Made by a program: the position numbers and the translations under genes. Of a DNA stretch of 64,000 bases, positions 25,519 to 64,000 are shown in pieces (the stretch's first letter is position 1; the number at the start of each line of letters is the position of its first letter). Source of the DNA: Nephromyces sp. MM_2019. Taxonomy: Eukaryota > Apicomplexa > Aconoidasida > Nephromycida. The notes below the pieces were generated by a model. It did no database searches. It was not told the origin of the DNA and saw nothing but the letters and a program-made list of their open reading frames with translations. The stretch is taken from the NCBI GenBank assembly GCA_015657535.1, contig JADHZB010001899.1:1-64000 (forward strand), written 5' to 3'.

Positions 25519-28500
25519 TTACTTTAGCATGCCTGTCGTAGCACTAGTTGCACGGCGTTTTCCACGGTAGAAATAGAAAGCAGCGCCAATTCCGATCGCG
25601 AGTACCACTACAGGGATCACCACAATGAGAGCAATGGCCTAAAAGGAGTAAAGGCATACGATCAAAAATAAAAGTATATGCACACGAAGCATCCAATATA
25701 GAAGCAATCTTCTTTGCTTCACAGTGGTTTACATTGATAAATCTTTTCACTGACAAAAGGTTATGGCATAATGGCAAGGAATTCAAACCACGCGTTACAG
25801 GAAAGCTAATGACGCGATTGAGTAGGGCTGAATTAGTTTGAAAGGCAATATGCTTTCAGTTTGCTAATGAAAGCGCTTTTCTACATTACTAGTTCACAAT
25901 ACAAAGGGCAAATAATCACGTAAAAATATATATTATCCTCCTGGTGGGTAAAAGAATATCATCCCAACTGCTAAGTTATCTAGCCCCATGGCAAAAGGCA
26001 AGTCTAGCGCCTAAGCGGGTTCTTTCCGCTGATAAATGCATTAAATAACCCTTGGGGGGAACCCAGTGTAATTTCAAGCGTTTAGTGACTGCCAGTCTAA
26101 AAGCCACTAAGGAAAAGCGTTGCGGCCATAAACAGAGATGGTGATAGTACAGCGACGGGGCTTGTGGTCTCATGCAAATATTGGCAGTTCAGCGTGGTTA
26201 TTGAGCTTACCGTCGTGGTGAGTCCGCCCGATACCCTCCTTGTAGGTACATTACTGAAGGTCACTGAACATGAAAAAGGGAAACAGAAAATCAGTAAATC
26301 GTCTAATCAGCCAGAAAGCCCTCACGACGTGAACTTGACGGCAAAGGCGCGTCATGAACACGCCAATAAAACTACCCCCCAACAACTCATGGCCCCAAAA
26401 GGTAACATCTCCGAAAAAATTACTTTCGAAAGGATAAAAAATACAGAAAAAGACTCTAGCATTCGTGCCTAATAAACTAATTAATAACTTGCCGCGATTT
26501 AACAACTGTAATGAGCACACGCGGCGAAACATTCATATCTTTTGTATCTTGCAACTCGTGCGTTGAAAATCGTTGCACATAAAATGAAAAATATGAGGAA
26601 TAATTAGCTTGTGTAAAACCTTGGCAATTATCAGAGAAATAAATAAACCTGCACCAAACGCTTCCAGCCTGCAACGAAAGTTTAATACTAAAAGAAGATT
26701 CGGAAAAGCTATTTCTACTGTTGAAATACTGATAGAATCAGCAATGGCAGGCAGGACATTGCATCTCACTTACCAGAATCTGCCTCAATTGAGCAAGGAG
26801 CGGCTTTACATACATGTTGCTTAAATACTGGAAAGCAGTCGGAAATCAAACCTTCGTAAGCTTCATCTTCCATCAGTGTCTCCCGCATGGTGCCGTAGTC
26901 TCTAGAACAATCACTTATACTGCATGCACTTAATCCTGCTGACGTGTACACGCAAGGCCTATGGAAAGATATAACCTGCAAAGGATTATCCCATTTGAAT
27001 TCACCTGGTTCTTCAACTGTGTCTGGATTAAAGTTGTGCGGCTTCACTTGGTCTATATTTCGCTGCTCGCACGGTATCTCCATGATTGTATCGTCGAAAT
27101 CTTCAAAGTTTGGATAGTCCTCCATCTAAATGATAAAATAACAAAAAATTTCTTGTGCAGCTCTTTTGCCAAAGAAGCAGCTATCAGTACAAAAAAAAGT
27201 GCTATCCTCGCTGGGATTCATGACATGTCATTGCCAATAGAAGCGCTCAAAAGTTGACTCACTTTTTGTGGCCATGATTAAAAAAAAATTAGCACTCCAC
27301 AGTGGCTGCATGCATAAAACGAAGAGCACATAATCACAATTTCTTTGAATCGTGCAATGCATTTCTATGCATAGCGCTCATAAGCTTATTGTATGTGAAG
27401 GGGAGCTTTCCTAAATATTAAAAAAAAAATTTAAAACCCCTCATATTCCAGTCATTAAAAAAATAAGCTTCACAACCATTAAAAATCACGGGGATTGCAC
27501 TTTCACAATACATTGCAATAAAAACAGACCGAAAAGAAGAAAGCTATGTATAATCAGTGAAGCAGACTACATTCTGAAGCGATAATCCTTCAAAAGTGTT
27601 ACTAAAAAAATCAGGCAGCCCTAACTTCCAGTGTGCCAGCAAGAAATCACGCATGCCAAAAATCAGAGATACACAATTGTAAACGCACACAAAAAAGGAC
27701 AAACACATAAAGAGACATACACAAACGCAAACGCACACACGCACAAACCAATAGATTCTCTAAAAAAAAAGTGCACACAAAGTCTGCATTTTTCTTCTCT
27801 AACGGTTAAACTCGCAAAAAAGCATGAAAAGCTGTTTAATTTTGCAAAATCTCCAAAAAAAGCGTGCAAAGCGAAACAAAACAAATCCACCGTCGCTGCA
27901 ATTCATAAACCAAAAGCCGTGGGTAGAGAGAAGCCTTTACAGTGGCTAATCTCATGTAATACTTACAAATCCATCACGACCCTTGGCAAATCTGCAGCTC
28001 ATATTGATAATTTCATTCATTTTAGCAAATGCCACGGGGCCATGCAATTCCTCGGTTATTTGTGAAAGTCCTACTCCTCCTTCGTGCTGAATTAGCCCTG
28101 GCGTTGCATTAAGGCTATCAAGGATACTCCTCCACGCACTCTTGGGAGCATCATCATCGTCACCCTGACAGTTCAATAGTATGCGAAGCAGGCATTTCAC
28201 TCGATATAAAGAACATGAAGTCTGTCTAACGTCTTGAAAAACGTTAAGCAGCTATTATCCTAGCTTGACTAGCGAGAGAGTTAAGATAAAAACATCACAA
28301 ACTGCTGGCTACCAATCAAGATCAGTAAGCATAAAAGAAGCAACGTCAGCTATATAGCCAAATTCCTTCATGCAATGTAAAGGCGCATGATTTCGTAAAC
28401 CAGCAAACTACACACCCAACAGGACAAAAATACTACTGAAAAATTGGGATTTCCTATACATACTTGACGTATTTCAGGGAGACTCAGCAATCTTAACTTA

Positions 28501-31500
28501 GAGCTTCAAATCTCACATCTTCACGTGATATCTTCAACCCTACTCATTAATTATACGCGTATGCTACCAGCATGTATAAAGTAAGAATTAGCAAGCAGAT
28601 CGCCTAATCTTGCCCAGTATATAGTAAACAACACTACATAAACTCTGGTAAAGTAGTTTTGGAACACGTAGAGGCTCTACAGTGACTGCTGTAAGCAGTA
28701 CAAGCACACCCTTTTATGAAATGCGAGGAGCTCGAACAATACCCCTCATTAAAACCCACCGGTAACGAATTGATGGAGAGCACAGTCGTCATCCTCATCC
28801 TAGGTATTTCCCTCCCTCTGTTACCGTAATACACAGCTTGTGCTGTTACCCTCGTAGTATCATCTTCTGTAGAAACAAAACATAGATTTCGTCGGCGGTT
28901 TAATGCGCAAATTATAAGAACGCATACTAAATTTCACAAACAGCAAGATTGCATAGCAAACAGCACAGGATAGCACACCAAACAGCGAATTAACCAGGAG
29001 CATTACGTCGGGTTAAAACCCTCCTAAACTTCACAATGGTAAATCTTCAACGCTTAATCTCTTCTTTGATAAATCGTGCAGCTTTTCAATCATAAAAGCG
29101 CTAAAAGTCCCACCTGGATGTCCTGCCAAAACTGTGTAAAGCGTTCTCCATGCTTCCACGTATCTGTCCTGATACTTTTTGATACCGAAGCTGCCACTAC
29201 GAGTATATATAGTTGCAGTGACGCTGCGCCTAGTGCTGAAGACGAACAGCAAAATTATTATCATCAAACTTCAGTCCTATCAACGTGCATTTCATCTTCT
29301 CTACCACAAATATGAAAGCTTGAGCAACAAACAAATGCAACTAGATGACACTAGCATAAAAAGGTGGAATAATCCGAAAACTAACACTGAACACAACCGG
29401 AAACTACAAAAATTCATTGAAGAAATCAGATTCCATGAAATTCGCTTATTTGTACGGTTTAGTCTTCAAATTCAAAAAGAAAGTCAATCCAAATCCTTAC
29501 CGGAGGTGATGTGGGGTGTCAAATGCGTTATCCACGAAAGACATATAGTTTATCGTAAACTTCGAGCCTTGAGGTAAAATGCCACTTTCCGAAAGGGATG
29601 TGAAACAGTACTGCAAGCAGATTGATGAACGAGTTTCTTGCAGAGTACAAGTCAAAAAACTCGAGTTTCATCCCTGAATGTTTCAAATGGCATATTCAAA
29701 TGCAACGAACAACACAGTTCTCTCGTGAGCTGAGGATACCCCCTCATAAATAGACATATTTCCTCATCATTAAGCATAAAAAGCTCGTCGAAACAAAACT
29801 TGTTTAGACTAAACCCCAAAGAAATCTTCTTTTGATTGCATTTCACTTCATCCAACCTAGAAACATCGAAAGAAAGATCTTTGCAGGTTGAAGGCTGGTT
29901 TCCTTAGAACGGTTTCTATATAGATGAATTGATTTCCAAGTCTTTGATATATATACCTGCTACTTTTGACGCGGCGACAGCATGATGATAGGCGCACGAT
30001 GGGGAGAAGAAAATGCGATCAGCTTCAGAAAGTTGCAGAGATTAAAGCAAATGAAGCATTGAGTAACACAATCTTTCAGTAGGTTGACTTAAATCCACGA
30101 AAAGTACCAAGAAGCTTACCGTGAAACCATTTTCTGTGCTCTCCTCAACCCATCCACTATGCACGTTGTTGCCCAGTGAAGGGGTTGTGGATTCCAACGT
30201 TACCGATGCAATAGTCACCGGCGAGTGAGTAAATCCACTTTCTTCATAAGGCACGCTTACGCAAGCATACTTGACATCCTAACAACAAAAAAGATCCAAA
30301 AAGCTTGATTATGCTGAGGTCGCGTGCGCCGTATTGTGCGCTGCGTGTTCTGCTTATGTTGTGTTGTGCATATGTGCTCGTATGTGTCTCGTTTTGATAC
30401 AAAAAGCTCAATTACACCGTTTCTATTGGCAATCATTAGTTCAACGATGCCCGACAATACCCAATGAAATAAGCTGCTGCTGAATAGTTTCAAACACATT
30501 TTTTCGATGTAAAATCAATACAGCAACTCCTATTATAGATACTATATATATAAAAATGATTGGCTCAACAAAGTGTTGAGACTTCATCATCTTCATCGCA
30601 TGGGATCGACACACACTCGTGGGCAAATCAAAGAAAATCACCGAAACAACTGCAAAAAAGATGTGATCTACAGAAAAAAGGCCTCAATCAGTGTGAACTA
30701 CAGAAAAAATTTGAAAAATTTGAGAATTGATGGAACTGAGAATTCGAGTTCATTGCATTAAATTAGTTGGATACATCTTCAAAGACTCAGTTTTCAGGAT
30801 ATGAGCCCCCAGTTTAAACCTAACTCTGTAGGCGTTCCAAAAAAGAAAAGATAAGTTCTCACACAAGCAACACACCTCGTCCTCAATTGTGACTGTAGAC
30901 GTCCCATAATATAACTGATGGGCGTCCTTCACTGCTTGCACTTGGGCTTCAAGTGAAGTATTGCTATCGAAGGCCAAGTAAGAGATTCCTTTTTCGACGA
31001 CATGATCTGAGGATTCAGGTACGTGGTTCTCTCGATAGCATAGCTGCAGAAATGAATTGACAGTTATCACTTCTCATACCGCCTCAATAAGAGTCAATAG
31101 GAAGATTTTGAAGATGTGGTACTCAATATCAAAGAGCTATTTCCTCTGGTAATAGCTTTGGTCATCGATGAAAAATTCCATAAAAAACATACTCAACAGC
31201 AATAAGCGTAAAAATGAGTTATAGCTCATTAGGAAAATGACATGAATCATGAATAAGGATCGTCAATCAGGTTAAAAACTAGGCTACATCAAGCAGTAAA
31301 CATAAACAGCTTATAATAGAGCACCAAAAATTTATGGCTGCTACAACACATCTCGGGGAAATATAGTTTGTTAGCCCTCTCGCATCGTATCTAGTTGATG
31401 CACACACATTCCTAAGGAAACTACGCCTTCGGAGAATTTTTCCCATGTTGAAGAGCATGGTTGAGATAGAGTAGCAAAGGTGGAATGAAGATAGACTAGT

Positions 31501-34500
31501 GAAAATAGACTCGCTGAAGCAACACTATTGAAGATAGACTGAAGATTGACTAGCTGCAGATACACTAATGAAGCAACACTATTGATAGACCGGAGATACT
31601 CGTTTCTCTTACAAATTGTTCCTAAATAGCAGAACACTCTTCAAGCCACATCTAAATACTTCACTGCGCAAGCGATGAAGGCACCACCACAAGGCAAGAC
31701 GCAGATAGAGAACCAACACACATTAGATCGAAAAAAATATCAGCCTGTGACTTACCGTGAAGCCATCCCGAGTTACATTTTCCACCCAAAAGCTGGTATC
31801 ACCGTGGAGATCATTCCCTCCAACATCAACATTACCGGAGAAGAGAAAGATAGGAACACTAGGAAACGGTTCTGCAAAGACGTGTGCTTTGCAATCATTG
31901 CCAGTCGCTGATTCCCCGACTACGAAAGCAACTTGATCTCTGGAAAACAAAGACCTCTCCACGACTAACCTGAGTGTGTGCAAAAAGTTTATCCGAATTA
32001 GCTAGCACAAACGATATTTGAGGAATAACGTAGCTTTGGAGGCGTTGAAAAATCAAAAAGACTAGCAATCTTGCTTATAATCTTGTTCAATTTTTCGCAC
32101 ACATGGAATTCGTTTCGCTTACAATCTGATCATTTTTTTCGAACACACCTAATTCATTTTATCTCCATATATTTCACTATGTGTTTTATTTCGCGGCATG
32201 GAGTGCACTCCACAATGTAAAAACTCTAGTTCTCATGGGGCTACATATAAGGAAATACATAATTATGCAATGCTCTTGAAGTGCGCAACAGAAGTGGATA
32301 GAAACGCACGACTTAGGCGTGTTAGTGCATTCTGGTGTATAGTGTATGCGATCGCGTGTTAGCATGCGTTGGTGCTTTCGTTAACGAGTTCACATATGAT
32401 GATATCCAGACTATCAAAACCTAAAAAAATGCTGCAACGAAACCCAAATCGTGTGGTTCTCTGCTCTAAACAAATAAAAAAATATTAAAACCTCTGCAGC
32501 TGACAACCTAGGCATTCAGTGTTAGTAGATCGCATTTTACCAGTCAATATATGCTCCTTCATAATTACTCTCCTCCGAACTATTGGAGAGTTGCTTATTG
32601 CAGTATACAAATCCAGTAAGAAAATTTTGTGAGGCATACTCTGAGATAGCTTCAGTTCGGTATCGCTTGGTGAATTGGTAAGTCGAGCCTTCAAGAATTA
32701 AATTAGAGCTTTTTTGAACGCACACATGCACCCCGTGGTAGGAGCTTTGGACACTAACATTCTGCAACTTGCAGCCACGCTGATTCATGTTCACTCGCAC
32801 ACTACTCTGCCATCATATAAGATATAACTTCAATTTACATTCCCTCAGCTAGATTCTTTTAGTCTCAAAAATCGGCCAACTTTTACTCCCCTCAAAGAGG
32901 CATTTCTTCGAATTTTAGGTAAGAAAACCACACATTATATACATATCCATGTAAAACATCAGATTGATTGCCGGAAGTGAAGGTAATCTTTGGAATAATA
33001 CAAAAGCAATATAGCACCTTGCCTTGAAAGAATCGTGAACACACTAAACAACTTTCGAAATAGCTAAATACACTACTGCAAAACGGCTTAGCCACACCTA
33101 TGAAATGCGCATGATGCTATTGTGATGACCTGCATCCAAGCTCCCATCTTCCACTACTTGCGATGTGGAAGATTTCTCTCAATTTCTAAGATAAAAATCA
33201 AAAAGTTTGGAGCGACCACACGCAAAAAAAACAAATAGGGCCCTAGGTCTTCCAATGCGATTATACGTACCGACTCGCCCGAAGTCTTTCTTTGACTTGT
33301 AGTTCGGCGTGGCAATTACTGCAGGTGGAAGTAAGCTAAAAATTCCCGCTGAGAATCCTCTGTGAGTCTCCCCTACAATAGGGTAGGGATAGGTGACTCC
33401 ATAGCACGTCTCATAACCTGGGAAAGGAGATTTAGGGCAAATTCATGTAGAAACGTGTGTAACATCCCTCATCCCTGCTAAATTGAAAAACGCAAAGAGA
33501 GATAGACAAGTGGTAGAGAAAAGCTCATAGTGTAGAAATACTCATTTGGCATCGTTCCATCTAGGTAATATACACTAATATAAGCACATTTGCTTAATAT
33601 ACGCGCAGCTGCACACGCTGCCATAAAATCACCCTCACGTACACATTCCCACAAACGCCCTCCCATAAGCACAAGGTCCGAAAATTCTACGCTTTTTGGA
33701 CGTGATATGGCAAAAGCAAAATGCGTTTACTATAAAATAGCTGCATCCATTTATGGAAAAGGAGTAGTTGTGAAGTTTAAACGGCCTGCCTTGCCCAGGT
33801 GTACGTATTCCATAACGTCTGCTGACAATTGCCTTGATAGACGTAACGGCAGACACTATGAATTTTGCTCAAGGATTCATTCCAGAAGAGAACACACATG
33901 AATGATCCCGATAACTGCTTTATGTTAAAAGAATGCTCAATAAGATACGAGTGCATAAAGTCTACAAATACGAATATAAAAGCAAGACCCACCATCTTTG
34001 AGAACAGGTTGCAGATCCTCCATGGAAGTTGATCCTGAAAATCAGATTATTTCAAGGCAGTAATGTTACCGCATTGCACGCAAACAACATTTGAGGACAT
34101 CACTTAGTCTCATTGAGAACGTGGTGAATCTATATGGGAGCCTCTTAGCCACACCGTGACTTCCCAGCCGTTAGAAGATTGTAGAGTAACCTAAGATGCT
34201 GTGGCGATGGGGGGCTCGCATATTAAGCCCCATGCTCTTGAATCAATGACACAAATATATATTGAAACTATCCACTAGCTAAATGTAATGAACAGCTATA
34301 AATTGGCTAATACCAGCACAATTAGAGTAAGCAGTCATCATGAGGAGTAATTATTTCAAAACATAAAAAAGTGCGAGGAATGTATATATTTTCCGGTGCT
34401 TGGCTTATTAGCTATGAATAAGCAAACGTTAGGACAGACTACTGTAACTACACATATTCATGGTAGCTGGGAAGATGATTTGCCTTTATATTTTCCAATC

Positions 34501-35255
34501 TGGTCATGTTCTTGGTTAATGAAAGTCATGGGATCATGAGTAACAGAATGCGGCGCAGCAAAGAATATCGTTATTAGAGCCTTATAGCATTAAGCGTGAA
34601 GAGCTCTGCACAAAATTCGATACCACCAGTGCTAGAAGCTACTAGTTGCTAAGCTTGTATACCACGAAGGTAATTAATAATTAAGAGGTTAAATGTTGAA
34701 GGTATCGACCCCAAAGCTCGCTCAAAGTAACGTTATAAAACATCGATCTTATTTGGTAATGTATCCAGAGAAATTCTAATGGTACTTTTGTTGCCTTAAT
34801 CAACTTGCTGGCTTGGTGATGCGCCAAAGGTAAGCTAGCGATTGATGTCCACTTCATATTACTTGACTTACGATGTGTGGAGTATTGAATTTAAAACGGG
34901 AGAACGAGTGGTCCATTTGTCAGAAACTTGTTAGGGAAAAACAAAGTGTATATCATTCTAAGACATTGTAGGTTATGTTAATACGAAGGGGAGGGGAGAA
35001 TGAACACACGGGGGACAAGAGATTGCACACAAACCCAGACACCCTCCTACACACAAGTAGTAACTCTAATCTTTACAAAAAACTAAAGCAGAGCGTACAG
35101 TTGTGAGCTCTTTCATTTCCAACAAAGAAATTAGCACTAGAAATACCTGCACGATAATCAGTGAGTACTCGAGCATCTAGATCCAGCTGAGCATATGCTA
35201 AGCTGATGTACAGAACAAGTGCCAATAGGCACGAGCGCAGCAGGCCATTCATCAT
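25519..35255 (-). CDS. Type I membrane protein with H-type-lectin-like repeats (about 15 exons)
   Basis: Minus-strand exons: 35255-35147, 34034-33993, 33417-33271, 33043-32943, 32806-about 32640, 31939-31756, 31043-30876, 30278-30120, 29610-29501, 29190-29114, 28866-28760, 28164-27967, 27125-26774, 26263-26211 and 25638-25519. Phases agree at every join; together they give about 697 residues. Only the fifth exon's donor is uncertain, since it could extend to about 32543. Order of parts: signal peptide (MMNGLLRSCLLALVLYISLAYA); a Cys-containing N-terminal part (YETCYGVTYPYP); a weak first repeat; lectin-like repeat 2 (FAEPFPSVPIFLF...FWVENVTRDGFT, then GISYLAF); repeat 3 (GWVEESTENGFTYCF...INYMSF); an alpha/beta stretch; a Cys-rich region with an acidic start (MEDYPNFEDFDD); a transmembrane helix (IALIVVIPVVVLAIGIGAA); and the tail YFYRGKRRATSATTG. 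The NVTxxGFT motif followed by an aromatic-rich strand is typical of H-type (discoidin/snail agglutinin) lectins, which bind GalNAc/Gal sugars. A surface or secretory-organelle adhesin is inferred. Confidence 0.78.
31440..31600. repeat. Degenerate GATAGACT-type repeats inside an intron
   Basis: The intron between the sixth and seventh exons of the lectin-like gene contains imperfect copies of AGATAGACTAG/GAAGATAGACTG and two copies of TGAAGCAACACTATTGA about 60 bases apart. It looks like a decayed minisatellite. No coding function is apparent. Confidence 0.5.
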
Positions 35256-45535: not shown

Positions 45536-48500
45536 ATGTCGGGAGCTTCTGCTATCTTCATACTGGATTTGAAAGGTAGAGTTATTATCAGCAGGAATTA
45601 TAGAGGAGATGTTCCTATGAATATTGCTGAGCACTTTTACGCACACGTTATAGAGCAAGATGACTCGCTTGTTAGACCAGTGTTTGTTAACGCTGGGATT
45701 ACGTACTGCTGGATAAAGTATAATAACCTGTATATACTGGGAGTTACTCAAAGAAACAGGTGAGGGGGGCATGTGTGCCCAATTGCATTGGAGGATGAGA
45801 GCACCTGTGTATCGCTAGTTTTCTTTCCTATGTGAAGTTCTGTGTGTTGTGTGCAATTTTTTGAGTGGAAAATGCTAAAGACAGGCGAAATAGTAGGAAT
45901 AGTGGAAGGAAGGGGTAGTAGTGGTGGTAGTAGAGCCGCGTTGCTATTTTGTGAAGAATTCACAAGTTTCTTGTTAAAATTTCTTGCTCTTTCTAAACCT
46001 AGTTTTTCTCTGCAATTCATGATGAAAACTCTATCATATCCATCTCTGTGTGTGTGAAGGATCAAAAACTTAGTCGAAAAGTGCTGATTTGTATCACTTC
46101 ACAAAGTAGTTAGGCACACGAAAAGCAGGATGAAACACAAACTCACACACATAATGAGTAGCCACACACACATAATCAGTGGCCACATACGCAAACAATG
46201 AGTGGCCACATACGCAAACAATGAGTGGCCACACACACACAATGAGTGGCCACACACATCACCATCTCTTGGAGTTTCTAGTAATAATTTTCGAATGAAG
46301 AGATACTTTTCTATATAAGCCTTGAGTGATGGAGTGACTATAATTTTCTTACCACTAGACTTTCGGTGGACGCACACACACGCCCGGCCAATCATTATAG
46401 ATTATTCAAGTCTTTTCACACTGTAAATTTTTGCTTCTTCAGCAACAGTACTATGCTGGTTACCTTCCTCTATAAGTTAGCGAATTTGCTATGCGCTTAC
46501 TTTAATGAGTTGGAAGAGGAGAGCATCCGCGATAACTTTACGATTACCTACGAGTTGTTGGATGAGATTATGGATAATGGCTACCCACAGTCTACAGAGG
46601 TGCAAATACTTCAGGAGTTTATTAAGAATGAAGCACATCGCCTGACTGTCGATAAGGTGAATATTAAAGATGAAAAGGAGGGTTTCTTGAGGGTGAAGAG
46701 GTTTTTTTCGCTTTTTTGATAATATTATTTTAACGTTTTTCGCATGAAAAAGGGGGAAATACTGTGTTTATGTGCTATTACTGTATATACACTCCTATTT
46801 ATATCTGTAGAGATCTATATATTATTGTTTGTACAGCTTCAGATAATACATCTTCTTGCACCTCTTCATGTAAGTTTGTTTCTTTCTCTGCATACCTACA
46901 TCTTCATCTCGATACCTCTAAACCATAACATAAGCTTTCACAGCGAATTTTTTCTTCGGAAAATTCCTGTGAAGTTGTAAAATCCGCCTTTTTATCGTGA
47001 TTATAGGAAAAATATCTAAAAAATAAAACAACTCTTTTTCATGAAATATCAAACGACGAGAGAGCCTTCTCAATTAGCTAAATTTCTCACAAAAAACACC
47101 CCATTTTAGCCTGATTTTGAGCTTTTTTTGTGTGTTACTTCTTTTTCACGGCTTTTCTTTTCTAGATTCGCCCTCCTACTGCTATAACAAATGCTGTGAG
47201 TTGGAGATCAGAGGGTATAAAGCACAAGAAGGATGAGATCTTCTTGGATATAATTGAAAAGCTTAATATACTGGTATCTTCAAGTGGCACAGTTCTTCGC
47301 AGTGAGATTATCGGAACGTTGAAGATGAAGTCATTTCTATCTGGCATGCCGGAGCTCTTACTTGGTTTGAATGATAAGCTTCAATTTGACGGTGGAAGCT
47401 CCTCTCATGGAGGCAATGATGGTGTGAGTAGTCCGGGAGCTTCTACGAGCTTTTCTTCAAAAGCCATAGCTATGGAGGACATCAAGTTTCATCAGTGTGT
47501 AAGGCTGGCTCAGTTTGAAAACAATCGGACGATTAGCTTTATACCTCCTGATGGAGAGTTTGAGTTGATGAATTACCGGCTAAATAGCCATGTTAAACCA
47601 CTGTTCTGGATTGAAGCTGTTGTTGATGCTGGTTCGTGGGAAGGACGTACTTTGATAAGGGTTTTTGACTTTTCAATGATTTTTTTGGTTCATCTTCGCA
47701 GCTTTTAACGGTTTTTATGTAGTGAGTTAGCTTTGTTGGTGGTGGCAGGGAAGGAACTTTCAACTCTGGTGTGTAGTGGGTGCTTGAAGATGTTGAATGT
47801 GGGTGTGTTGCTTGAAGATATCGAATTTGGGTTTTGTGTTGCTTGAGAATATCAAATAATCATCAATTTCGATTTATCTTTGACTGAAAAAGCCCTTTTT
47901 TTGTAGATAGCTCATGGCTGTCTGCTTTGTCTCCTTTATTTAAGTTTAAAGATTTTGCGTAGCTTTCTGACGATATGCATTTAAGTATAGGCGTATGTTT
48001 AGCAGTTTATAATGAGTTTTTTCTCTTGCACTTTTACATTGTTTCTGTTTCATTCTTGAACTTGCCGATGAAATACTAGAATAGCTGATATTTGTCTGTT
48101 TTTGGCTTTCTTTGCGATGAAGATTATATTTCCTAAGATAGAATGATGCAGCTTCAGCCGAAGGATGCAAGCCATACGCACTCATGTGAACACACAAAAA
48201 AACTCACAGACGAATGTACAAACACATACCCACATGCATCCAAATACACCTCCAGGCATGCGCCCAGACTTGCATCCAGACGTACGTTAAGACACACTCA
48301 AACTCTTCCCTCAAACACACTCAATCTCTCACTCAAGCACATGCCCCAACACATACTCAGACGCACACTCAAATACACTCAAACACCTTCCCCGATAGCC
48401 ACTGAAACGCACACTCAAACACCCCCCCACCCATATACCCACCCACACAGACAATTTTGCGTCTAACTTCCCACTTTTAGGGCGTAGTTCCTCACGTATT

Positions 48501-49811
48501 GAGTACCTAGTGAAGGCTCGCTCGCAGTTTAAGAACAAGAGGATAGCCAATAACGTTGAGATACATATTCCCGTTCCTCCTGACGTCGATTCTCCCTATT
48601 TTAAGACACATGTAGGCACCATAAAGTATCTTCCCGAGTCGAACTCGATGGTGTGGAGTATAAGGCAGTTTCAAGGGCAGAGAGACTTTGTTATGAGTGC
48701 AGAATTTGGTTTACCGTCGGTAAGTATGTGTGTTGATGATTTGTGTGTGCGTGAAAAATGAAGGAGGAGCTTGTCGTTTGTTTAGAGGTTTATGATTTTT
48801 TTGGTTTTGTTATGGTGGCATCGCTTGTTCTGGAGGCAGAGAGTAGTTGTGTGTGTGGCGACAGTAGATTACATCATTTCTTGGTATAATGGGGTTTCTT
48901 GATTGAAGGAAGGCATCTTTTAGTGTGTGTTAGGGAAATGTTTCGTTTGAAGAGTAAATCTGAGTTGTTGATGCTTCGTAGTTCAGTTGCTTACTAATGA
49001 AGATTACAGTGTTCTAGGTTTAACTTGCTGTGTGTGTGTGTTTGGTGCGCGATTTGGAGGGTAGGTGTGTGCCAAGTTTTCTGCGTTTTTGATGAAAAGA
49101 AAATCTTTTAGTGTGGGTGATTTGTGGGGGCTTTGGAGTTGCTTTCCAATGTGTGCGCCAGTTGTAGTTTGGTGGTATTGATATTGCAGATTTGTTGTGG
49201 GAGAGTTTAGAGCGAGTGTGTTGTACATTTTTGTTTAGTTTTGGGAGGTAGATATGTTTGCTGATGTATGTGTTGGTGCTGTCTTATGTGTTTTGTTGCT
49301 ATTACTTTGCAATGTGTTGAATGTATTAAAAGTGGGTGAAGAATACCTCGCTCGCATCTACATTTATATATCTACCACCCACTTGTATTTTCACTCTTTT
49401 TGCCGCTGTGTGTGAGGAGCTTTTGCAAAAGCATTCCTTCGTTTTGCCAGTGTTTTTTCATTGCTTGTAAACTGGTAGAGTTGCCCCTTTCAATTGTCCT
49501 ATAAAGCAGTCTTCATTGGCTATTTGCTGCTTCCTGATGATGAGTATTATAAGGATGTGAAGAGTGTGTATCTTTTTTGATTTTGCGTCTTTTGATGAAC
49601 TTTAAAGATGCCTGCTTTCCCCTATTGGCGTATAGATAAGTGATGAATCTCGCGATTCTTATACAAAGAGGCCTATTGTGGTGCACTTTGAGATGCATAG
49701 CTTTGCTGTAAGTGGGATTTACGTGCGAAATTTGAAGATTTACGAGAAGAGCGGTTATCGTGCCCTTCCCTGGGTACGTTATATTACCAAAGATGGTGAC
49801 TACCAATTGAG
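45536..49811 (+). CDS. AP1M1: AP-1 complex mu subunit (clathrin adaptor medium chain)
   Basis: Resolved exons: 45536-45759, 46443-46656, 47166-47631, 48481-48719 and 49636-49811, with phases 2, 0, 1 and 0 all consistent; 439 complete codons so far. The family length is about 425-440. Mu1 recognises YxxPhi sorting signals in cargo at the trans-Golgi network and endosomes. The N-terminal longin-like domain (MSGASAIFILDLKGRVIISR, then NELEEESIRDNF and YELLDEIMDNGYPQST) is followed by the mu-homology domain from RPPTAITNAVSWRSEGI through SGMPELLLGLNDKL, FHQCVRLAQFENNRTISF, SQFKNKRIANNVEIHIPVP and SGYRALPWVRYITKDGDYQL. The signature matches mu1 rather than mu2-4. A Gly/Ser-rich insert follows LNDKLQF. 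Donor 3 is G|GTTCGT. After 49811 (AG|GTACGG) the last few codons are unresolved: either an unspliced run to a stop near 49858 or a tiny last exon. Introns contain TG/CA arrays. Confidence 0.95.
46125..46262. repeat. Minisatellite in AP-1 mu intron 1 (about 23-bp unit)
   Basis: Five or so copies of AATGAGTGGCCACACACACA or AATGAGTGGCCACATACGCA in direct succession. They lie fully within the first intron (45760-46442), between the donor and the acceptor CTTCTTCAG. Confidence 0.85.
48170..48450. repeat. CA-rich tandem repeats in AP-1 mu intron 3
   Basis: About 280 bases built from ACTCAAACAC, CACACTCAAA and ACACATAC motifs on the plus strand, ending 30 bases before the acceptor CCCACTTTTAG at 48480. 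Open frames through it are composition artefacts. Confidence 0.75.
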
Positions 49812-50049
49812 GTACGGAACGAAGATGCTGATTAAGTTGATATGCTGCTGTCAATAGTCAGCTTTTAGTGTGTGGAGAGAATATTTAGCTGTTTTTAAGC
49901 TACCTAGTATTCGCTGTTATTTATAGCTCTCGATTAGATGCCACTTAAGGTGGTAAGTGTGTTTTTCTTCTAGGTGTGTTAAATTTTATGCTAGGTGCTA
50001 GGTTTTATGGTTTATTAGGTGCTACTTTTCACACTCCACTCATTAATAG

Positions 50050-62950: not shown

Positions 62951-63239
62951 ACTCCTGAGAGCCGGCGACCTCGCCACCTTTTGATGCTCACGCTGATGAG
63001 GCTGAAGGGGAGATTACCCCTATTGCATGGCTAACACACACACACATTCCGAGTTTATGTTAGTCTCCTGCTATTCTTCTTGAGCTATTCTTACTGGAGG
63101 TAAAGAAGGAATGAAATAGTGGGATTGTTCCGCCAGGAATGTCAGTACTCTTGTGCTTTAATACGTGAGAAACATAGGGTTACAATAAGGTGTGTGTGTG
63201 TGAGTTTATGAGAGAATGATGGGGGAGGGAATGTTGGTA

Positions 63240-63690
63240 ATGAAGGGATGTGCATGTGTGTGTGCACGCCTCACAGTATGATGGCTGCACTGTTGGTATA
63301 ACAGTTGCGTGGTGTGTGTGTATGCGCCTCACAGAATGATGACGGCACTGTTGGTATGTCAGGTGTGTTTGTGTGTGTGTGTGCCTCACAGAATGATGAC
63401 TGCACTGTTGGTATGTCAGGTGTGTTTGTATGTATGTGTGTGCCTCACAGAATGATGACGGCACTGTTGGTATGTCAGGTGTGATTGTGTGTGTGTGTGC
63501 CTCACAGAATGATGACGACACTGTTCGTATAACAGGTTTGTGTGTGTGTGTGTGCCTCACAGAATGATGACGGCACTGTGGGTATGTCAGGTGTGATTGT
63601 GTGTGTGTGCGCCTCACAGAATGATGAGGGCACCATTGGTATAACAGGTTTGTGTGTGTGTGTGTGCGCCTCAGAGTATGAAGAGATTGC
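63240..63690. repeat. Minisatellite of 55-59 bp units carrying splice-site-like borders
   Basis: CCTCACAG (or CCTCAG) occurs at 63269, 63327, 63384, 63443, 63500, 63555, 63612 and 63669, each preceded by a TG run and, in the first seven units, followed by AATGATGACGGCACTGTTGG and (T)AT(G/A)(T/A)CAG|GT. The eighth unit changes after CCTCAG into AGTATGAAGAG, which starts an apparent coding exon (63675). Each full unit therefore looks like polypyrimidine-poor acceptor, 28-base mini-exon, donor. Confidence 0.92.
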
Positions 63691-64000
63691 TAGTCGTAGA
63701 AATGCGTATTTAACTATTGAGAGTACACATCTCTTTTTGCTTGTAAGTGGTATGTAAAGTGAAGAGACGGGTATCATTAGAATAAGAAGAAGCGAACACG
63801 TTCTGCACACGAGGGCGGGCAGCACTGTGTGTGCTGAAAAGTCTTGTGGAAGTAGAAGATTGTGGCAGTAGATGCTCAGAACAGGAAAATTTTTCCACAC
63901 ACACGATACGAGTATACCACTGGATGGACGGTTGAAAATGCAGTGAAAGTAGTGCCTATTGGTTCTCTATATGTGTGGAGAATCTTGTGTGTTTGTGTGT
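63675..64000 (+). CDS. Exons of an unidentified plus-strand gene, running off the right edge
   Basis: Two exons join in phase 0. The first is 63675-63742 (acceptor GCGCCTCAG, donor CTT|GTAAGT), reading YEEIASRRNAYLTIESTHLF. The second starts at 63856 (acceptor GGAAGTAG), reading IVAVDAQNRKIFPHTRYEYT, then GWTVENAVKVVPIGSLYVW, and is open to the window end, though its last codons (TG run) may already be intron. An upstream block near 62960-63035 (EPATSPPFDAHADEAEGEIT) may be another exon. The gene's function is not recognised. The regular alternation of strands and aromatic residues suggests a beta-rich domain. The acceptor of the first exon is formed by the last unit of a minisatellite. Confidence 0.5.

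Follow-up and report, generated by a model that had tools for sequence, protein, structure and literature searches.

An apicomplexan senses a host cell before its rhoptries fire, and in Toxoplasma gondii an outer part of a complex required for that step is MIC15/RDF1 (TGME49_247195). This protein of 2909 amino acids (aa) has an H-type lectin domain, three TSP1 domains and one transmembrane (TM) segment, forms a complex with CRMPs, and is required for invasion and rhoptry discharge (PMC9218915; PMC9670195; PMC9815656). Its contact within the complex is probably CRMPA (PMC9815656). MIC15 and MIC14 are described as exclusive to Coccidia in PMC9218915; in PMC9815656 the closest orthologue given for MIC15 is instead a thrombospondin-related protein of Plasmodium, with very low sequence conservation. 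Here we describe a gene in a 64,000-nt stretch of DNA from Nephromyces sp. MM_2019 (contig JADHZB010001899.1, assembly GCA_015657535.1), the whole of which we call the window. The gene, on the minus strand at 35255-25519, appears to encode a compact variant of the known H-lectin/TSP1/TM combination, and one that is multi-copy in the assembly.

The likeness to MIC15/RDF1 is drawn from its published description, not from a comparison with its sequence, and would consist of a leader, H-type-lectin-like and TSP1-like domains and one C-terminal TM. Whereas MIC15 also has two cysteine-rich repeats of ~300 aa and a 180-aa tail (PMC9218915), the window protein has 717 aa, a single TSP1-like domain, two lectin-like domains and a tail of ~15 residues; the three TSP1 domains and the ~2900 aa of the MIC15 type are not found in it. 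Its H-lectin and TSP1 modules are diverged homologues that fall below the Pfam cut-offs. Toxoplasma TGGT1_277910, of the CRMP complex, shares one TSP1 domain and one TM (PMC9218915; PMC9670195; PMC9815656), but is 1232 aa long, with no H-lectin among the domains listed for it in PMC9218915 and no signal peptide according to PMC9815656. The Helix pomatia and Helix aspersa agglutinins and the discoidins (PF09458) resemble the family in the sandwich predicted for one copy and in the profile matches of its modules; unlike them, the window protein would be membrane-bound, is multi-domain with shared cysteines, and is without the Helix-type ligand residues. The initial annotation of the window knew of no standard name for this architecture. 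We likewise know of no name for the full-length protein, but the combination of domains has already been described for MIC15/RDF1. Literature searches on H-type lectins in apicomplexans and parasites, and on Nephromyces lectins, gave no report of this family, the match for the latter dealing with LCCL proteins. Full-length homologue searches, which reach proteins of 0.55-1.75 times the query length sharing exact 5-residue words (a range outside which MIC15 lies), found nothing among the 7990 candidates scored each time.

The gene, its copies and the protein

The gene is real: as initially proposed, it is a multi-exon gene whose introns are GT-AG and whose phases join across the exons. It is also more than a chance arrangement of frames, because other copies turn up when the whole assembly (48.3 Mb in 1127 contigs) is searched with the protein. 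Queried with a 15-exon reading of the protein, the search gave, besides the gene's own exons, matches on contigs C814 (E = 2.7e-8), C1032 (1.8e-6) and C36 (0.07); a copy on C51 was found via a family search and profiles. Counting the window, the assembly has five copies, one apparently broken, and a related gene on C804 (20083-20622) whose H-lectin module exceeds the Pfam cut-off (about 24.5-24.6 bits). The copies on the matched contigs show the same order of parts, those on C36 and C51 being read only from about the second module (D2) onward. They are diverged, with modules 19-38% identical to the third module (D3) of the window and joined copies 24-26% identical; BLASTP of the joined window protein against the joined C1032 protein (11 exons, 796 aa) gives E = 9e-20. 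The C814 copy (93854-98664) has in-frame stops and a frame change in the stretches matching module 1, D2 and the TSP1-like exon, its other exons being intact. It is apparently a pseudogene or an assembly error, and only its intact exons were used, singly or as two adjoining, with nothing mended. In two copies the D2 loop before the last strand holds a low-complexity insert at about the same place, of His-Gly-Asp repeats on C51 and rich in Lys and Pro on C1032.

Fifteen exons had been proposed, and such a reading (748 aa) is phase-compatible. Our choice is a 14-exon model in which exon 4 begins at 32793, because the C1032 copy offers no equivalent of the 80-bp stretch (33097-33018) that would make the extra exon: in that copy a phase-1 acceptor comes straight after the matching phase-1 donor. 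The acceptor at 32793 comes fourth in a run of AGs and is uncertain. The initial observation holds, though it probably counts one exon too many.

The protein opens with a leader and a weak first module; two H-type-lectin-like domains and an alpha/beta stretch come next, and then a TSP1-like domain, one membrane helix and a basic tail. Apart from the hydrophobic leader there is one strong hydrophobic segment, which spans about residues 674-700 and reaches Kyte-Doolittle values of up to 2.94; among the other 19-residue segments with a start between residues 21 and 669, none exceeds 1.6 on that scale. By sequence and hydropathy, then, a type I membrane protein is predicted, with the signal peptide, single helix and basic tail that the initial annotation had named. 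The alpha/beta stretch (exons 9-11, 29235-27967), between the lectin-like and TSP1-like domains, is without a Pfam match, and its order of strands and helices is reminiscent of SEA domains.

Homology of the lectin-like and TSP1-like modules

D2 (exons 5-6) and D3 (exons 7-8) are related modules, and a Cys, a Pro and a Trp are invariant across the seven modules aligned. The repeated NVTxxGFT-type signature noted at the outset is clear twice in the window protein (ENVTRDGFT and EESTENGFT), but the first module scores at noise level: with no Pfam H_lectin match, and with -1.2 bits in the window and 0.6 bits on C1032, it was rejected as an H-lectin. For a piece of the product of exons 5-6, H_lectin is the sole Pfam family matched (E = 0.0033, positions 5-66/67). 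The sister copies take the homology further. Among 13 modules from six contigs scanned singly, six matched H_lectin, in five of them as the only Pfam family. A profile made from seven modules, with C51 and C804 held out, was run against 3439 open reading frames (ORFs) of the window and the fetched loci, and its held-out matches were C51 (5e-8), C804 (7e-5), C814 (9e-4), C51 again (1e-3) and C36 (7e-3); the next match stood at 0.44 and the best reversed decoy at 0.84. The Pfam H_lectin profile (PF09458, curated cut-off 24 bits) found nothing in the whole assembly at 0.001, and at a loose threshold four places: C804 (24.6 bits, above the cut-off), C51 twice, and C793, which looks like chance. 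Three of these four are the same loci that the held-out profile matched. Because the two profile searches converge in this way, homology with H-lectins is firmer than the window's own match. In the Protein Data Bank (PDB), the five best-ranked sequences for a family profile including C51 and C804 were Helix agglutinins and SLL-2, also a lectin (E = 0.0073-0.034), and H-type lectins lead the matches to an AlphaFold2 model of one copy's domain. Family alignments with misplaced fragments or one dominating row were discarded, and one was kept.

Several results weigh against this homology and would suit a chance match to a generic beta-sandwich. The window's E-values are marginal even at their best; D2 reaches 18.0 of the 24 bits required, and D3 has no match of its own. 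In a Pfam scan of the whole 15-exon protein, the unrelated IL6Ra-bind (0.087) came slightly ahead of H_lectin (0.094), and it scored 0.012 for module 1. Seven of the 13 modules lack an H_lectin match, profiles lacking C51 and C804 met short WBP4 matches and no H-type lectin in PDB, and a PDB fold search with the window exon alone gave nothing usable. Against chance stand the convergence of the two profile searches, the near absence of competing families among the matched modules, and the lead of H-type lectins in both the model and the PDB lists, so that we regard a chance likeness as quite improbable. The homology is supported, weakly by the window's own sequence and more strongly via the sister copies and bridging searches. 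PDB matches to WBP4, levansucrase and antibodies were set aside as short stretches or unrelated proteins, and the searches that gave them met no H-type lectin. That two neighbouring genes have been joined is more improbable still. The N-terminal exons are the least conserved and the model is built on genomic sequence, but the parts of the C1032 copy follow one another from leader to TM as they do in the window, and each of its ten introns agrees with a window intron in order and phase. This count is not blind, since phases guided some splice-site choices, and the aligned place can be told only where the two proteins align well, as they do not in exons 9-11.

What had been called a Cys-rich stem is a cysteine-rich segment, better described as a six-cysteine TSP1-like domain. 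Its six cysteines, in TSP1 order, are common to the window, C1032, C36 and C51. The spacing, and a start of the form C.Y...CS.S.C, are like those of F-spondin type TSP1 (PF19028), although exon 12 of the window has no Pfam match and its C51 counterpart, matching TSP1_spondin over the full length (1-52/52, E = 1.2e-4), stays below the cut-off at 22.7 of 41 bits. Searched against PDB, a three-copy profile put a coat protein first (0.08) and F-spondin second (0.27). With a four-copy profile and 4500 ORFs, the best match outside the family was a TSP1 array on C1010 (0.0033), the best reversed decoy scoring 0.94. The WxxW and CG motifs, which we take to be TSP1 features, are absent from the window copy. 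The TSP1 arrays on C592 and C1010, TRAP-like by eye, were rejected as relatives of the family, with no lectin-profile match better than 1.6.

Ligand binding and possible role

The initial annotation saw a candidate sugar-binding protein, a part that the sequences do not support. The Helix agglutinin chain has Arg63 and Trp83, which we take to be the residues holding the sugar in its GalNAc site. In a hand alignment anchored on the GF motif, neither is kept in any of the eight modules checked, and for that reason sugar binding is unproven. Two of the eight have Asn-His at the place of Trp83-His84, and in six the residue eight positions ahead of the conserved Gly is a tryptophan. A changed or lost site is a serious rival to sugar binding.

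We lean towards a type I membrane protein, on the surface or in a secretory organelle, from an apicomplexan that belongs to the Cardiosporidium/Nephromyces line. The two beta-sandwich domains would lie far from the membrane, each probably closed by a Cys-Cys pair, with the TSP1-like domain near the membrane and the single helix as anchor. With an altered binding face, the lectin modules may attach to an external partner, be it a host or self surface, a glycan or a protein, and the TSP1-like domain may serve as a stalk or as the contact to a partner protein. Signalling, if any, would pass through such a partner because the tail is so short. At the apical surface, the protein's likeliest job would be recognition or attachment ahead of entry into host tissue or lodging there, by analogy with MIC15/RDF1, which has H-lectin, TSP1 and TM and partners CRMP proteins in rhoptry discharge.

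A possible but less probable alternative is that the modules keep the H-lectin fold but no longer bind sugar, and that they bind proteins or have a structural part in a receptor complex, for example as the docking half of a CRMP-type complex. The missing ligand residues speak for this, as do the recurrent tryptophan and the Cys pair, which point to conservation of the fold and not of a ligand; so does Toxoplasma MIC15, which acts in a complex (PMC9815656). H-type lectins may, however, vary in their ligand residues, so that another sugar could be held without the Helix pattern, and the Asn-His pairs also count against loss. It is unlikely, though less so than a chance likeness, that the protein works not on the host but between parasite cells, in the adhesion of gametes or zygotes, or in the wall of a cyst or oocyst. 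A multi-copy, diverged membrane family would suit self-recognition as well as host recognition, but Pfam scans of the protein saw no known gamete-protein domain. We suggest, with much reserve, that the non-coccidian Nephromyces/Cardiosporidium line may have expanded and diversified a compact H-lectin and TSP1 receptor family as its set of receptors recognising tunicate tissue; the family would be a minimal, older or parallel counterpart to the contact sensor MIC15/RDF1. It supplies host-recognition candidates in a line that has a reputed apicomplexan mutualist among its members, and its short members offer small constructs for testing sugar binding by such domains.

Organism context and features of the locus

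An apicomplexan origin is borne out by a neighbouring gene. The AP-1 mu subunit at 45536-49812 of the window is 73% identical to that of Cardiosporidium cionae and 68% to that of Neospora, and groups with Cardiosporidium at a support of 0.93 (a 25-sequence tree using 24 of 120 listed proteins). A second AP-1 mu gene, a single open frame at C1017:18957-20234, is 72% identical to the five exon pieces of the window gene, so that the assembly is probably a mixture of at least two apicomplexan species; the five copies are therefore to be read as five in one assembly. Uricase, reported among apicomplexans for Nephromyces and Cardiosporidium (PMC6320678), has matches on C548 (a single 364-aa frame), C1018 and C1090 (both split over several frames), in keeping with an organism of that type. 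Ephrin_rec_like domains, which CRMPs also carry (PMC9815656), are present in the assembly. The SAG family had no match, but its control likewise matched nowhere, which makes this negative uninformative; AMA-1 had two matches.

Table 1. Exons and related features of the window gene (window coordinates)
Feature	Position	Strand	Remark
Exon 1: start codon and leader (MMNGLLRSCLLALVLYISLAYA), phase-1 donor	35147..35255	-	C1032 first exon also ends ...DYRAG, phase 1
Exon 2: short; fused with exon 3 in C1032 copy	33993..34034	-	
Exon 3: first half of module 1, IATPNY(K/H)SK motif, phase-1 donor	33271..33417	-	Motif and donor position common to C1032
80-bp stretch readable as extra exon, unsupported	33018..33097	-	Phase-compatible but absent from C1032 copy
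Exon 4: remaining half of module 1, not shown to be homologous to lectins; uncertain acceptor, phase-2 donor	32541..32793	-	
Exon 5: first part of H-lectin-like domain D2, ends ...WVENVTRDGFT	31756..31969	-	
Exon 6: end of D2 (LCY...ISYLAFDS) and linker	30876..31043	-	With exon 5 matches H_lectin 5-66/67
Exon 7: first part of H-lectin-like domain D3, ends ...GWVEESTENGFT	30120..30278	-	D3 without own Pfam match
Exon 8: end of D3 (YCF...INYMSF), phase-2 donor	29501..29610	-	
Exon 9: start of alpha/beta stretch, no Pfam match, present in copies	29114..29235	-	
Exon 10: alpha/beta stretch	28760..28866	-	
Exon 11: alpha/beta stretch	27967..28164	-	
Exon 12: six-cysteine TSP1-like (spondin-type) domain	26774..27125	-	
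Exon 13: juxtamembrane linker	26211..26263	-	
Exon 14: membrane helix with short basic tail (RGKRRATSATTGMLK) and stop	25519..25638	-	C1032, C36 and C51 copies end alike

Towards the end of the window, at 63180-63966 on the minus strand, repeat-like frames with recurring EAHTHT units are probably a minisatellite.
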